From Ferrovibrio terrae (lineage in GTDB: Bacteria; Pseudomonadota; Alphaproteobacteria; Ferrovibrionales; Ferrovibrionaceae), in assembly GCF_007197755.1 (NCBI RefSeq), contig NZ_CP041636.1, positions 372,001-436,000 on the forward strand: a stretch of 64,000 nucleotides of DNA, given 5' to 3'. The notes under the pieces were generated by a model. That model was given only the letters and a program-made list of their open reading frames with translations. It did not search any database and was not told the DNA's origin. Below, in pieces: positions 4,834 to 38,954 of this stretch (position 1 is the stretch's first letter; the number at the start of each line of letters is the position of its first letter). Made by a program: the position numbers and the translations under genes.

Positions 4834-5753
4834 TTTGGCCCGGCCTCAAGGAAGAACTGGTCGTCGGGCGGCAGGATCAGTTCAATGGCCAGCGCGATCG
4901 CCACCGCCAGCACCAGTGCCGCCAGCAGGCCGCGAATCTGTTCGCCGCGCAGTCGTGCGCCGTGACGCACGCCGTATTGCGCGCCGATCACCGAGCCGAC
5001 CAGCAGCATCAGCGCCAGTGTCACATCCACTGTCTGCGTGGTGATGGCATGCAGCATCGTCACATTCGCCGTGACGAAGATGATCTGGAACAGCGAGGTG
5101 CCAACCACGATGGCGGTGGGCATGCCAAGCAGGTAAATCATCGCCGGCACCAGCAGGAAGCCGGCGCCCACGCCCATGATGGCGGCAAGGATACCGACCA
5201 GGAAGCCGAGGCCGACCGGCATCAGCAGGCTGATGTAAAGTTGCGACTTGCGGAAGCGCATCTTGAACGGCAACGCGCGGATGAAGGCATGGTCGTTCAG
5301 CCGCTTGCGCCGCACGACAGGGTTCGCGCCGGGCTTGGCGCGCAGCGCGCGGATGCTTTCGGTCAGCATCATGCCGCCGATGGTGCCGAGGATGATCACG
5401 TAAGACAGCGCAATCACCGCATCGAGCTGGCCGATACGCTTCAGTACGGTGAAGAGGTAGGCGCCGAAGCTCGATCCGACCAGGCCGCCGATCAGCAGCA
5501 TGGCGCCCATCTTGAAATCGACGTTGTCCTTGCGCCAATGCGCATAGACGGCCGAGACGCTGGCCGCCACCACCTGGTTGGCCGAGGTCGCCACCGCAAC
5601 TGCGGGCGGCACGCCGATGAAGATGAGCAACGGGGTGAGCAGGAAACCGCCGCCGACGCCGAACAGGCCGGAAAGATAACCGACCGCTCCACCAAGGCCG
5701 AGCAGCAACCAGATGCTGACCGACAACTCGGCGATGGGCAGGTAAATTTGCAT
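4830..5753 (-). CDS. TSUP family (TauE/SafE) anion exporter
   Basis: A 307-residue polytopic protein with the two repeated TauE/SafE signatures, GLFGVGGGFLLTPLL near residue 32 and IMGVGAGFLLVPAMIYL in the second half. The family moves sulfite, sulfoacetate, sulfate or related anions across the inner membrane. It ends in a 4-bp overlap with the Alph_Pro_TM gene, indicating a two-gene operon. It differs from the shorter TSUP protein at 59038-59811. The actual substrate is not determined by sequence. Confidence 0.9.
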   Translation of the reverse strand: MQIYLPIAELSVSIWLLLGLGGAVGYLSGLFGVGGGFLLTPLLIFIGVPPAVAVATSANQVVAASVSAVYAHWRKDNVDFKMGAMLLIGGLVGSSFGAYLFTVLKRIGQLDAVIALSYVIILGTIGGMMLTESIRALRAKPGANPVVRRKRLNDHAFIRALPFKMRFRKSQLYISLLMPVGLGFLVGILAAIMGVGAGFLLVPAMIYLLGMPTAIVVGTSLFQIIFVTANVTMLHAITTQTVDVTLALMLLVGSVIGAQYGVRHGARLRGEQIRGLLAALVLAVAIALAIELILPPDDQFFLEAGPK

Positions 5754-5929
5754 AATTGTGGCCGGACCCTGACGACTACGCGGCTTGGTGCCTTATCTTC
5801 TGATAAAGACCAATTTTCTTATAAAGCCTTCGCGCCAGACTGCCATGGCAATCCTTGCGATTGTGTGATTTTCCCGCGCAAACCTCGCAGAGGGCGAGGC
5901 CGACTCGGCCCCGCAACGGACTCAGCCGC

Positions 5930-6298
5930 TCAGCCTGCATTGGCCTGGCTGTTATGGCCCATTCCGGCCGGCACACCCGCCCGCTCCAGTTCGCCACCCA
6001 GCCGGCCCGACAGGAAGCTGAAATACATGCGGAAGTCGGAGATGAAGGACCAGAGCGGGTATTTGAAGCTGGCCGGCTTGTTCTTCTCGACGAAGAAATG
6101 CCCGATCCAGGCCGGACCGTAGCCGATCAGCAGCGCACCCAGCAGCCACGGCCAGTCGCCGGTGACGATCAGGGCAGTCAGGCTGAACAGCGCCAGCGTG
6201 GTGCCGAAGTAGTGCCAGACCCGGGTGACGGGCTTGGCATGCTCCCGCAGATAAAACGGCCAGAATTCACCGTAGCTCTTTATCCGATTGTCGGACAT
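5930..6298 (-). CDS. DUF962 / Mpo1-like membrane protein
   Basis: A 122-residue protein with hydrophobic segments at about residues 32-46 and 48-66, and the family pattern [21 protein letters not shown] plus [19 protein letters not shown], giving conserved histidines. DUF962 includes yeast Mpo1, an Fe(II)-dependent dioxygenase in fatty-acid alpha-oxidation. The bacterial members are largely uncharacterised. It is divergent from the LiuR-like regulator at 6466, and a candidate operator lies between them, so control by acyl-CoA metabolism is possible but not shown. Confidence 0.85.
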
Positions 6299-6361
6299 AG
6301 TGGCCTCCTCCGATTACCTGATACGGAACCTACAATCATAATTCGCTGTTTTCCAGCATTT

Positions 6362-6374
6362 TTACTTTAAGTAA
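6362..6374. promoter_or_regulatory. Short AT-rich palindrome upstream of merR
   Basis: TTACTT-T-AAGTAA is a perfect inverted repeat with a single central base, in the divergent region between the DUF962 gene and merR. It may be part of a promoter or operator. No binding protein can be named. Confidence 0.3.
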
Positions 6375-6394
6375 GCACGCGAATGAGATTCGAG

Positions 6395-6410
6395 TTGACG
6401 TTGACGTAAA
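6395..6410. promoter_or_regulatory. Candidate LiuR-type MerR operator
   Basis: TTGACGT-TG-ACGTAAA is an imperfect inverted repeat (arms TTGACGT and TTTACGT when read outward), 55 bp upstream of the merR start codon. LiuR-type regulators of branched-chain and fatty-acid degradation use palindromes of the ACGT-containing kind. The placement between the divergent DUF962 and merR genes fits autoregulation. Assignment is by pattern and position only. Confidence 0.5.
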
Positions 6411-6465
6411 CGGAAACTAAGACTCCAACCAACGTGAGAAACAAAGCCTTAAGGGAGGGCTTACC

Positions 6466-6924
6466 GTGTCGGATAACAAGACCTACACGATCACCGATCT
6501 GGCGCACGAATTCAAAGTGACGCCGCGCGCCATCCGCTTCTATGAAGACAAAGGCCTGCTGCATCCCAGCCGTCAAGGCATGATGCGGGTCTACGCCAAA
6601 CGTGACCGTGCCCGCCTTCTGCTGATCCTGCGCGGCAAGCGTCTGGGCTTCAGCCTGGCCGAAATTCGCGAGATGATCGACCTCTACGATCTGGGCGACG
6701 GCCGCATGGAGCAACTGACCCTGACGCTGAAGCGGTCGCGCGACCGCCTTGCCGCGCTGGAAACCCAGCAGCAGGACATCGAGGACGCCATCACGCAGCT
6801 GAAGCAGGATGTCCGCATCCTCGACGACTTCCTGAAGCTGAACCGCGACCGTCCGGCCTCGCAGTCCTTCAAGGAATTCGTGCAGAGCCGCGCCACGCCC
6901 GAATACGCCGCCGTCGCCGAATAA
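6466..6924 (+). CDS. MerR family regulator, LiuR-like
   Basis: A 152-residue regulator with an N-terminal winged helix-turn-helix (YTITDLAHEFKVTPRAIRFYEDKGLLHPSR, about residues 7-36, written here only as its extent) and a long C-terminal coiled-coil dimer helix (about residues 85-130). It lacks the cysteine pattern of metal-sensing MerR proteins and resembles LiuR-type regulators of acyl-CoA catabolism. GTG start chosen because AAGGGAGGGC lies just upstream. It heads the beta-oxidation operon, with a short hairpin before the first thiolase gene. Likely it controls itself and the operon. Confidence 0.88.
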   Translation: MSDNKTYTITDLAHEFKVTPRAIRFYEDKGLLHPSRQGMMRVYAKRDRARLLLILRGKRLGFSLAEIREMIDLYDLGDGRMEQLTLTLKRSRDRLAALETQQQDIEDAITQLKQDVRILDDFLKLNRDRPASQSFKEFVQSRATPEYAAVAE

Positions 6925-35014: not shown

Positions 35015-36121
35015 TCACGCGGATTCATTGAACTTTTCAGCCTCCAGCCCGCCGCGCGACATCGCCTGCCACACATCGAGCGCCTGCATGGTCTCAGGAA
35101 CATCATGCACGCGCAGGATCTTCGCGCCCTGCTGCGCCGCCCAGAGTGCTGCCGCAATCGAGCCGGGCAGACGCCGTTGCGCATCGGCCTCGCGCGCAAT
35201 GGCGCCGATGAAGCTCTTGCGCGACACCCCGACCAGCAGCGGATAGCCCAGCAGGCGGAAAGCCTGCAAGCGCTGCAGCAGGGCGAGATTGTGATCCACC
35301 GTCTTGCCGAAACCGATGCCGGGATCGATCAGGATGCGGTCGCGCGGCAGCCCGGCGGCGCGGCAGGCGGCAATGCGCCCGGCGAGATAGTCGCGCACCT
35401 CGGCGGTGACATCGGCATACTGCGGCGCCTGCTGCATGCTGCCGGGCTGGCCCTGCATATGCATCAGCACGACGGGTAATCCCGTGCGCAGCACCGCATC
35501 AAGACTGCCCTCGCCTTCCAGCGCGGAAATGTCGTTGATCAGATGCGCGCCGGCCACGGCGGCGGCGCGCATGGTGCCGGCATTGCGCGTGTCGACCGAG
35601 AGCAGGGTCTGCGGCAGGTCATGGCGCAGCGCCTCGATCACCGGCACCAGGCGATGGATCTCCTGCTGGAACGAGACCGGGGCTGCGCCCGGCCGGGTCG
35701 ATTCCGCGCCAAGGTCAATAATGTCGGCGCCGGCCGCGGCCTGTGCCTTCGCCTGGGCAATCGCCGCCGCCGTGTCGCCTTTCAGGCCATCGCCCGAGAA
35801 ACTGTCGTCGGTGACATTGACGATGCCCATCACCAGCGGGCGGCCAGTCTGCTCGGCGTCGCGCAACAATGTATGCAGCCGCTCGACCGCTGCATGGGGT
35901 CTGCCAGGGGCGTTCGTGGCGGTTCGTTTTGCGTCGCTGGTGTTCGCTGGCATTCGTGGCGCTTCGCTGGTGTTCGTGGCGGTTCGTGGGTGTTCGCGGG
36001 CGTTCATGGCGGTTCGCGGGCGTTCGTGACGGTTCGCGTTAACCGATTTTTCCACCTCCGCGCGCAGCCGTACAGGGCAGCGGGGCCGGCAATCACCATC
36101 GCCCCAGCCCAGACAGCGCAT
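35015..36121 (-). CDS. folP: Dihydropteroate synthase with repeat-bearing N-terminus
   Basis: Dihydropteroate synthase joins p-aminobenzoate to the pterin in folate synthesis. The core begins near residue 95 (MGIVNVTDDSFSGDG at 98-112), and IIDLGAESTRPGAA and GIGFGKTVDHNLALL follow; it matches normal length from there. The first ~90 residues are extra. Residues 28-70 follow a 10-residue period (N at 30, 40, 50, 60, 70), encoded by a 10-bp tandem repeat. The start is uncertain: no good ribosome-binding site was seen, and a TTG at 35869 would give a normal-length enzyme without the repeat. Confidence 0.9.
   Translation of the reverse strand: MRCLGWGDGDCRPRCPVRLRAEVEKSVNANRHERPRTAMNAREHPRTATNTSEAPRMPANTSDAKRTATNAPGRPHAAVERLHTLLRDAEQTGRPLVMGIVNVTDDSFSGDGLKGDTAAAIAQAKAQAAAGADIIDLGAESTRPGAAPVSFQQEIHRLVPVIEALRHDLPQTLLSVDTRNAGTMRAAAVAGAHLINDISALEGEGSLDAVLRTGLPVVLMHMQGQPGSMQQAPQYADVTAEVRDYLAGRIAACRAAGLPRDRILIDPGIGFGKTVDHNLALLQRLQAFRLLGYPLLVGVSRKSFIGAIAREADAQRRLPGSIAAALWAAQQGAKILRVHDVPETMQALDVWQAMSRGGLEAEKFNESA
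35913..36038. repeat. 10-bp degenerate tandem repeat in folP 5' region
   Basis: About 12.6 copies of a 10-bp unit, consensus near TTCGTGGCGG on the plus strand; one copy is diverged (TTCGTTTTGC GTCGCTGGTG). Three units make 30 bp, giving a 10-residue repeat if translated. Single-unit changes would shift the frame. Confidence 0.85.
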
Positions 36122-36267
36122 GCAAGGATATGCAGTTCAAGGGTGGACGGAGTCCGCCATGAATGTTCCTATCATGTTCTGGTTCAAAAAGCAAGCTTGG
36201 CAAGTCAGCAAAGGACGGGGCAGGCTGTCGCCCTCGCCCCGCCTTTCCATTGCCCGGAGTCGCTGCC
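36122..36267. promoter_or_regulatory. Divergent region folP / lysE
   Basis: 146 bp between the folP reading frame and the LysE exporter start. No clear promoter or terminator could be picked out. Confidence 0.25.
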
Positions 36268-36882
36268 ATGACCCTCGATTTCCTGCTGATCGCGCTGATC
36301 GTCGTCGCCACGCCGGGCACCGGCATGATCTACACGGTGGCCGCCGGGCTGACGCGCGGGGCCAGGGCCAGCGTGGTGGCGGCCTTTGGCTGCACGCTCG
36401 GCATCGTGCCGCATATGATCGCCGCGATCACCGGCCTGGCGGCGCTGCTGCACACGAGTGCGCTGCTGTTCGACGCGGTAAAATATGCCGGCGTGGCCTA
36501 TCTGCTGTGGATGGCCTGGATGACCTGGCATGACCGCGGCTCCTTGAGCCTCACCGGCAAGGGGCCGCAGCGCCAATCCTTCCTGCAGGTGACGGTGGAA
36601 GCCATCGTGATCAACCTGCTCAATCCGAAACTGTCGATCTTTTTCTTCGCCTTCCTGCCGCAGTTCATCGCCACCGATGCGCCCGACGCCCTGCCACGCA
36701 TGCTGGAAATGAGCGGCGTGTTCATGGCGATGACGTTTGCTGTCTTTGCAGTCTACGGACTCTTTGCAGCAGCCGTGCGCGACCATGTGCTGAGCCGGCC
36801 GCAGGTGATGCTGTGGCTGCGCCGCACCTTTGCGGCGGCGTTTGTCGCGCTCGGCGCGAAGCTGGCGCTGACAGAGCGGTGA
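36268..36882 (+). CDS. LysE family exporter, second copy
   Basis: A 204-residue RhtB/LysE-type exporter with the VVATPGTGMIYTVAAGLTRG signature near residue 12 and INLLNPKLSIFFFAFLPQF in the second half. The ATG at 36268 gives the conserved start MTLDFLLIALIVVATPG; an upstream in-frame ATG adds 35 unrelated residues. It begins the stretch of plus-strand genes that separates folP from ftsH. Substrate unknown. Confidence 0.9.
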   Translation: MTLDFLLIALIVVATPGTGMIYTVAAGLTRGARASVVAAFGCTLGIVPHMIAAITGLAALLHTSALLFDAVKYAGVAYLLWMAWMTWHDRGSLSLTGKGPQRQSFLQVTVEAIVINLLNPKLSIFFFAFLPQFIATDAPDALPRMLEMSGVFMAMTFAVFAVYGLFAAAVRDHVLSRPQVMLWLRRTFAAAFVALGAKLALTER

Positions 36883-36912
36883 GTAGAAGTCACTAAGGTA
36901 AGGGGCAAGATT

Positions 36913-37980
36913 ATGAAGGAAAAATCAGTATGGAAAAGCTTTGAATCTATCATTGAAAATATACTGCGGGCGGAGCAACTCTATGTTCAAAAAGAACCTA
37001 ATGGCATAAATCAGCCGTCAGCAGATTTTTTAGTTTCTGCAAATCAGATCACGGCGGCGGTGGAGGTAAAATTATATAGTTCAAGAGAAACTTCTCTTAA
37101 TTCATTGCTACAATCTGCATTCGTTTTGGATGCGGCTCAGTCTGCTTTAAATGCACCCAAGTCAATTTTAATTGTGGGAAACGAACTTTCAAAAAGCGCA
37201 ATAAAGAGCATTAACCTGCGCTTCCCAAAAATGATCGTATATGACTTATCAAAGCTTCTTCTGCTATTGGCAAAACACCCTCAATACACAGAAACATTTC
37301 ATGAAATCATACGGCAAGCCCGCCCGTTTTCGTCAGATGCAGATTTTCTCATTGATAGTAAAAATGAGACCATAAGCATCATAGCCGACCTGAGCGCCCC
37401 AGATCATACGGCATCCGTCTTTGATAAGCCGACTGAAACCAGAAGTCGGGTGCACGGAAAAACTCTGTGGGAGCAATTGAATTCAGAAAATACCCGCGGG
37501 AGCTACAAACTATTCGAAACTAAAATGACAGAGGTTCTGAGGTATATCTTTGAAGGAGATCTCACTAATTGGGCTCGTGAAAAATCCACTCATTCTCGTG
37601 CATCGAGATACGATCTAATTGCCAGAGTCTCCTCCAATCACGATGTTTGGAAGTTAATCGCAGATCAATTCCGCTCTAGGTATATTATTTTTGAGTTCAA
37701 AGATTACTCAAAGAAAATTAAACAAGGCCAAATATACACGACAGAAAAGTACCTGTACCTAACTGCCCTGCGCTCTACGGCAATTATTATTAGCCGCTAT
37801 GGAGCAGACAATAACGCAATTTCCGCTGCACGCGGCGCATTACGAGAGCATGGAAAGCTTATTATATTACTCGCTCTCGATGACATTAAGAAAATGCTTG
37901 ATCAACGCGATCTTGGAAATGATCACAACAGCGTTCTCTCCGATTTAATGGATGATATGCTTATGAGATTGGAGCGATAA
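36913..37980 (+). CDS. Orphan low-GC protein, possible double PD-(D/E)XK nuclease
   Basis: A 355-residue protein I do not recognise as a named family. Two regions look like PD-(D/E)XK nuclease folds: residues 11-60 with helix glutamate E15, D38, and E51-V-K53 in AAVEVKLYSS; and residues 200-300 with E207, D234 in SRYDLIARV, and E261-F-K263 in IIFEFKDYS, followed by KQGQIYTTEKYL. A strand-like hydrophobic segment follows each. Base composition is unlike the neighbours: 42% GC in 180 bases counted at 36961-37140, against 67% in 60 bases of the next gene. Possible defence nuclease; function is not shown. Confidence 0.7.
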   Translation: MKEKSVWKSFESIIENILRAEQLYVQKEPNGINQPSADFLVSANQITAAVEVKLYSSRETSLNSLLQSAFVLDAAQSALNAPKSILIVGNELSKSAIKSINLRFPKMIVYDLSKLLLLLAKHPQYTETFHEIIRQARPFSSDADFLIDSKNETISIIADLSAPDHTASVFDKPTETRSRVHGKTLWEQLNSENTRGSYKLFETKMTEVLRYIFEGDLTNWAREKSTHSRASRYDLIARVSSNHDVWKLIADQFRSRYIIFEFKDYSKKIKQGQIYTTEKYLYLTALRSTAIIISRYGADNNAISAARGALREHGKLIILLALDDIKKMLDQRDLGNDHNSVLSDLMDDMLMRLER

Positions 37981-38045
37981 ATGACACAAATACCAATCTC
38001 GCATACTCCCTCCATCAACAGGCCCATCTCTGAATCAGCGTAATA

Positions 38046-38729
38046 ATGAAAATCGGCATCATCGAATGCGGGCCGGTCCCCGCGGCGCTGCAGGACACAT
38101 ACATCAGCTATCCGGCGATGTTCGCGGCGCAGCTCGGCGCGCTGCTGCCCGGCGCAAGCTTCACCACGATCTCCGTCGTGAATGGCGAGACGCTGCCCGC
38201 GCCGGAGGCCTGTGATGCCTGGCTGATCCCCGGCTCGCGCCACGGCGTCTATGACGACCTGCCGTGGATCGCACCGCTGAAAGATTTCATTCGCGAAGCA
38301 GCGCGGCTGAAACGCGCCCCCATCGTGGGCGTGTGTTTCGGCCACCAGATCATCGCCGAGGCGCTGGGCGGCAAGGTGGAGAAAGCCGCGATCGGTTTCC
38401 GTGTCGGCATGGAGCGGTATGAGACCACGCTGGGCGGTAGGTCAGGGAGCGTCACGATGCCGGCCTCGCATCAGGACCAGGTCGTGGTGCAGCCGCCGGA
38501 CAGTGAAGTGGTGGCGAAAACCGCGGCCTGCGCCGTCGCCGGCCTGCGCTATCAAAATGCGCCGGTGCTGTCCGTGCAGTTTCACCCGGAATTCAGCCGC
38601 GCCTATCTGTCCGACCTGATCGACCTCCGGTCGCAGAAGGACGTGCAACCCGGTCTGGCCGATGCGCCGGACGGCGAGACGGATGGCATCGGCATGCGCT
38701 GGATCGCGGATTTTCTGGCCGGGCGGTAG
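38046..38729 (+). CDS. Type 1 glutamine amidotransferase
   Basis: A 227-residue class I glutamine amidotransferase-like protein. The nucleophile is C97 in IVGVCFGHQII, with H180 and E182 in QFHPEFS completing the triad. It resembles stand-alone GMP-synthase-type amidotransferases, often acting in gamma-glutamyl hydrolysis, but the acceptor domain is missing. It follows the low-GC gene by 65 bp and returns to the normal GC content. Confidence 0.9.
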   Translation: MKIGIIECGPVPAALQDTYISYPAMFAAQLGALLPGASFTTISVVNGETLPAPEACDAWLIPGSRHGVYDDLPWIAPLKDFIREAARLKRAPIVGVCFGHQIIAEALGGKVEKAAIGFRVGMERYETTLGGRSGSVTMPASHQDQVVVQPPDSEVVAKTAACAVAGLRYQNAPVLSVQFHPEFSRAYLSDLIDLRSQKDVQPGLADAPDGETDGIGMRWIADFLAGR

Positions 38730-38954
38730 CGACGAGCTCCCTTTCCGTTTCGCGCCCCAGATACGTCATCCCCGGACCCGGCGGCTTTGCCGACATACAT
38801 ATACTTTCGCGCAAAGCGCGATGGCCGGGGATCTCAGGCAGGACCCGGAATAACGTCGAGGGCAGGCCCCGGCATTCCCCTTGCCATCGAGGGTGGATGG
38901 ATCCCCGGGTCAAGCCCGGGGATGACGAACTTGCGATGGGATGACGTATCCGCC
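38730..38954. repeat. Composite extragenic repeat region
   Basis: A 225-bp gap holding several GC-rich palindromes, including ATCCCCGGG-TCAAG-CCCGGGGAT at 38901-38923 (9-bp arms) and further CATCCCCGG/CCGGGGAT copies at the left. The TCAAG/CTTGA centred palindrome recurs at 40082-40102. These look like alphaproteobacterial dispersed repeats. No gene seen. Confidence 0.6.

Follow-up and report, generated by a model that had tools for sequence, protein, structure and literature searches.

The cleavage domain of the type IIS enzyme FokI has one active site and requires transient dimerisation to cut both strands of DNA (PMC4081073). In BspD6I the two strands are cut by two non-identical subunits, one strand by each, and the variants E418A and D456A are catalytically deficient (PMC6261011). 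Other described systems of relevance here are the Mrr_cat (PF04471) nucleases, for example AF1548 and the type IV enzyme Mrr of E. coli, in which a winged-helix domain stands beside Mrr_cat, and Shedu SduA, a single-gene defence nuclease. PDC-M36A is a PADLOC profile whose 'PDC' label marks unproven phage defence candidates (PMC11514479), and PHROG 31260 is a viral family of unknown function for which no describing paper was found in the literature searched, where most subscription papers were outside reach.

We analysed a stretch of 64,000 nucleotides from the chromosome of Ferrovibrio terrae (hereafter the window), in which a gene at 36913–37980 on the plus strand encodes a two-domain PD-(D/E)XK protein of the PHROG 31260 family. 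The protein is alike to PHROG 31260 over its full length with no structural difference, but unlike the viral members this copy is chromosomal and lies outside any recognisable prophage. Its N-terminal half shares the fold and the D-ExK site of the Mrr_cat nucleases; unlike the E. coli Mrr-type enzymes, however, it has no winged-helix domain beside Mrr_cat, and a second nuclease domain follows. The C-terminal half is like the cleavage domain of FokI and R.BspD6I in fold (Z 11.9–13.0) and in the order of its active-site residues, E-D-ExK, whereas a recognition domain, methyltransferases and detectable sequence similarity are all missing, and the partner DNA methyltransferase of type II restriction-modification systems is missing with them. 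PDC-M36A has the C-terminal domain in common with the window's protein, but its N-terminal 290 positions are unmatched, so that the match is not full-length. The C-terminal half also resembles the nuclease domain of Shedu SduA (8ps5, Z 8.8), but the window's protein has no DUF4263 Pfam match, a different N-terminal part and two nuclease domains. The family is undescribed in the literature searched, and its component parts are of known kinds.

RESULTS

An AT-rich gene in an accessory-gene slot

The open reading frame encodes 355 amino acids from an ATG start, and a Shine–Dalgarno-like AAGGGG is present in the sequence 7 nt 5′ of the ATG (36900–36905, plus strand). It starts 30 bases past the gene of a LysE-type translocator (36163–36882, plus strand; Pfam LysE, E=1.1e-32; conserved from ~36264) and ends 65 bases short of the gene of a class-I glutamine amidotransferase-like protein (38046–38729, plus strand; Pfam GATase, E=5.8e-19). 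GC content is 40.9% in the gene and 41.2% in the whole segment between the two flanking genes (36883–38045), compared with ~65% in the surroundings, and the GC3 of 0.39 contrasts with values of 0.80 and 0.83 for the genes on either side. A preliminary description had recorded an AT-rich gene in a GC-rich background with codon use unlike that of its neighbours, and both statements were borne out. Two other features were observed near the segment. A degenerate tandem repeat with a 10/30-base period (35912–36036) lies at the 5′ end of a predicted dihydropteroate synthase frame on the minus strand and gives the predicted enzyme a repetitive N-terminal extension; and downstream of the amidotransferase gene there is an intergenic palindromic element (38755–38935; CCCGGGTCAAGCCCGGGGATGACG), parts of which match other positions in congeners.

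The nuclease gene was not found in any of nine congeners, all of which carry the LysE-type gene. An amidotransferase orthologue lies near LysE in four of them, and there the gap holds different, mostly AT-rich cargo: a 123-aa hydrophobic protein without Pfam match (49.5% GC) in the first, HigB/HigA-like genes with a 152-aa protein (45.5% GC) in the second, a beta-lactamase-like gene accompanied by HigB/HigA and the gene of a trypsin-like protein (45.8% GC) in the third, and remnants of a beta-lactamase-like gene in the fourth, the beta-lactamase assignments being made by eye. Because the same gap is filled differently in four congeners, it is an accessory-gene slot in the genus. Two toxin–antitoxin arrangements were noted in this cargo. 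One HigB/HigA pair (L142, 3384–4491) stands beside the low-GC gene of the 152-aa protein, which is HEPN-like by eye and has no Pfam match, and the other (L143, reverse complement, 5217–6673) stands beside a low-GC gene whose 267-aa product is trypsin-like and weakly matches LmuA.

The earlier proposal that an accessory segment interrupts a conserved gene order here agrees with the slot seen in the four congeners with both flanks. Acquisition by transfer, also proposed then, is supported by the absence of the gene from the nine congeners, by the other cargo in the slot and by the un-host-like composition; the gene was not present at the same place and with the same GC content in the close relatives checked. 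No direct repeats or target-site duplication were found at the segment ends, and hence we do not propose a transposon mechanism.

Two predicted nuclease folds in one polypeptide

Structure prediction from the single sequence reached a pLDDT of only 35, and the AlphaFold2 model built on 81 aligned sequences reached a pLDDT of 91.6 with a pTM of 0.88. In this model the 355-aa protein is predicted to be two PD-(D/E)XK folds in one polypeptide, an N-terminal Mrr-type domain (residues 6–128; 36928–37296, plus strand) and a C-terminal FokI/BspD6I-like domain (residues 178–355; 37444–37977, plus strand), with a linker only between them. The N-terminal domain matches Pfam Mrr_cat at E=3.9e-4 with 21.0 bits, which equals the gathering score of 21, and Mrr_cat is matched by 71 of the 81 aligned relatives. 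Structural comparison with VIA-align placed residues 6–128 closest to AF1548 (1y88; Z 12.1, 2.2 Å over 118 residues), followed by Can2 and Cdn1 (Z ~10) and the Avs4 nuclease (Z 9.5). Residues 178–355 in the same comparison matched Nt.BspD6I (Z 13.0), the BspD6I small subunit 2p14 (Z 12.8) and FokI 1fok (Z 11.9), with the next PD-(D/E)XK folds at 9.7 or below.

No Pfam match was found for the C-terminal domain, searches of PDB by sequence and profile gave nothing significant, and the C-domain profile had no relevant match. Comparison of FokI with the C-domain by hhalign gave a probability of 0.1%, so that a sequence relationship is not detectable and the likeness to FokI is a resemblance of fold. 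A viral fold search returned partial matches only, to phage restriction endonucleases. Between the two halves of the protein, profile comparison gave a probability of 69% (E=4.4e-5), and the alignment brings the two active sites into register. A winged-helix recognition domain is found neither among the Pfam matches of the protein nor in the model. The two PD-(D/E)XK cores claimed in the preliminary description are therefore upheld by the model, the fold matches, the profile register and two conserved sites, and with the halves compared separately each one has such a core.

Conservation of the two active sites

Conservation was counted across 115 alignment rows. In the N-terminal site, E11 (36943) is kept in 93/106 relatives, D38 (37024) in 106/106, E51 (37063) in 98/109 and K53 (37069) in 103/109. 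In the C-terminal site, E202 (37516), D234 (37612), E261 (37693) and K263 (37699) are invariant in every relative with letters at these positions (112/112 for E202), and they are followed by a helix with Q271 and Q273 and the invariant T277-E278-(K)-Y280-L281. The patterns used in the scan could bias the count for the C-terminal site, and 44 rows found without the ExK search pattern serve as a control; the intact sequences among them still keep it. Six of the eight residues named earlier (D38, E51 and K53; D234, E261 and K263) are thus conserved, as is the Gln-containing helix described after the second site, and two were wrong: E15 is variable (16 of ~106), the conserved helix glutamate being E11, and E207 is variable (51/115), its place being taken by E202. 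Several relatives (L023, L035, L059, L060 and L006) are interrupted by a frameshift or stop that lies either between the two domains or inside them.

The N-terminal site is eroded in ~10 relatives (E51 to A, T, Q, S, M or N; K53 to R) and the C-terminal site in none, which makes the C-domain the fixed part of the family. This asymmetry would also be expected if cutting is left to the FokI-like half alone and the Mrr-type half serves as a DNA-binding sensor whose catalysis is being lost or is gone, and the C-domain does occur with other N-terminal parts, namely in a distant protein where it is joined to a P-loop part (L003) and in PDC-M36A. Nevertheless D38, E51 and K53 are intact in most relatives, the window's protein included, and we regard this explanation as possible though on the unlikely side. 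A fusion of 1325 aa (L101) was left out of consideration, its ORF having probably been called too long.

A sporadic family on plasmids and prophages

The preliminary description took the gene to be an orphan of no recognised family, which was wrong. Residues 5–355 match positions 11–365 of the 365 in PHROG 31260 (E=3.5e-67), and all 81 aligned relatives match it as well. With the single sequence as query, no relatives were found in the genomes or the viral contigs, and a scan with a six-member alignment from plasmid relatives against 84,980 genomes and the viral contigs recovered 118 related stretches in the genomes (80 kept) and 27 in the viral contigs. More than 110 relatives are spread across at least seven phyla, the hosts including Pseudomonadota, Bacteroidota, Bacillota, Acidobacteriota, Verrucomicrobiota, Cyanobacteriota and a bin labelled Bdellovibrionota. 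The tree places the window's protein with alphaproteobacterial members (support 87–92). Its identity to relatives reaches at most 41% among the tree members, and the best segment aligned by BLAST has 44%. No full-length match was found in isolated phages, and no DNA match to the Proteus relative, used as the query, was found in complete E. coli genomes.

The family gene is >3 GC points under its surroundings in 53 of 73 relatives and >3 points over them in none, and low GC is therefore typical of the family. The plasmid relatives lie nearly all on rhizobial plasmids, and 25 of the 28 plasmids with relatives were typed conjugative. Several relatives from viral contigs lie in P2-like prophages, where they follow tail gene S and directly precede the baseplate genes V-W-J-I, and the isolated phages Dobby and Sirocco have other small genes at that position. 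In Pseudomonas P2-like prophages (L091, L097, L109 and L039) a conserved protein of 267–286 aa is encoded directly upstream of the nuclease gene; by eye it looks GNAT-like, its C-terminal part has a hydrophobic stretch, and it may be a partner in that lineage.

This distribution bears on whether the protein is a nuclease of DNA repair or recombination, of the Holliday-junction or mismatch type, rather than of defence. The N-terminal half does resemble archaeal Hjc (Z 7.4–7.9, with a weak sequence match) and the C-terminal half EndoMS (Z 8.2). However, occurrence is sporadic, in 3 of 385 genomes of the class and 1 of 10 in the genus, and this, together with the foreign composition and the location on plasmids and in prophages, is unlike a housekeeping repair enzyme, so that a repair function seems quite improbable.

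Neighbours and domain fusions

The PADLOC profile PDC-M36A matches residues 187–330 of the C-domain through positions 290–431 of its 457 only. A full PDC-M36A gene (E=5.5e-49 and 1.4e-36) stands directly upstream of the family gene at two Bradyrhizobium loci, and the PDC-M36A proteins there have their own copy of the FokI-like C-domain. The window's protein might accordingly be half of a pair, working only with another gene such as one for a PDC-M36A-type protein and incomplete in the window, and BspD6I shows that domains of this kind can work as heterodimers (PMC6261011). Yet a PDC-M36A neighbour was found at only 2 of ~75 genomic loci, no match to the profile other than the nuclease gene itself was found in the window's genome, and a search for an obligate partner gene beside the relatives found none, most of them being without a common partner. 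We therefore consider it very unlikely that the protein is such a half.

Other defence-type genes are frequent near relatives, though not universal. A gene for an OLD-family nuclease adjoins the Proteus relative downstream (E=6.6e-75), OLD-like ATPases were recognised by motif near other relatives, and two of the copies on rhizobial plasmids have annotated OLD and UvrD-type helicase genes in their vicinity. Nearest neighbours (118 proteins) matched 246 PADLOC families and distant ones (88 proteins) 26, a difference that is inflated by the many GajA models, dozens of which a single GajA-like protein can match, and by the unequal set sizes and carries little weight. In the window, ordinary metabolic genes lie on both sides. 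They are LysE and the amidotransferase rather than a methyltransferase, no intact C5-methyltransferase motif was found in the called neighbours of relatives, and neither a methyltransferase nor a DNA-recognition domain was found to accompany the window's protein.

In Bacillota relatives of 616–653 aa (L067, L069, L074, L082 and L084) an N-terminal C5-cytosine methyltransferase-like domain is present, in which the catalytic PC motif was not found; this degenerate domain is possibly a DNA-sensing pseudoenzyme. The N-terminal domain of two further Bacillota relatives (L078, 7458–8888; L081, 7041–8474) is TIR-like by eye. Since these fusions resemble added sensors and no methyltransferase guards the host, the protein could act in abortive infection, as an effector by which the host chromosome is destroyed once infection is sensed. 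The window copy, however, has no sensor domain or antitoxin, and most relatives are single genes, which leaves this role rather doubtful.

DISCUSSION

We favour, with moderate confidence, the reading that the gene encodes a mobile, stand-alone, single-gene defence nuclease whose one polypeptide carries two active sites and which is most likely directed against phages or plasmids. Of the single-gene defence nuclease first proposed for this locus, the doubled fold and the lack of a common partner hold, and the defence role is supported only circumstantially, by defence-type neighbours, by location on plasmids and in prophages, by sensor-like fusions and by a PADLOC candidate with the same C-domain.

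As a defence nuclease the protein would cut phage or plasmid DNA. By analogy with FokI dimerisation and the two-subunit cutting of BspD6I, the FokI-like half may be the obligatory main cutter and the Mrr half the sensor. The FokI-like half would probably need pairing to break both strands, with a second copy, with its own Mrr half or with a PDC-M36A-type partner, and the Mrr half may sense the substrate, be it modified, branched or broken DNA, and make a second cut in the majority of relatives. Before a target is met, the protein might be restrained by keeping the FokI-like domain unpaired, as has been proposed for FokI and BspD6I. More tentatively, and with less confidence than in a defence role, the family might be viewed as one of two-bladed nucleases, with an Mrr-type and a FokI-like cutter per chain and no separate recognition domain, which would break both strands alone and tell self from foreign through the Mrr half, pseudo-methyltransferase or TIR-like modules replacing the sensor or adding to it in other lineages.

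A widespread family for which 'restriction endonuclease' is the best existing annotation can now be read as two distinct predicted nuclease folds, each with its active site retained, and the unproven PADLOC candidate PDC-M36A is now linked to a FokI-like domain. The gap between LysE and the amidotransferase gene is a small chromosomal accessory-gene slot that is open to further mining. If the protein is a single-gene defence nuclease, it would be an unusually simple one.
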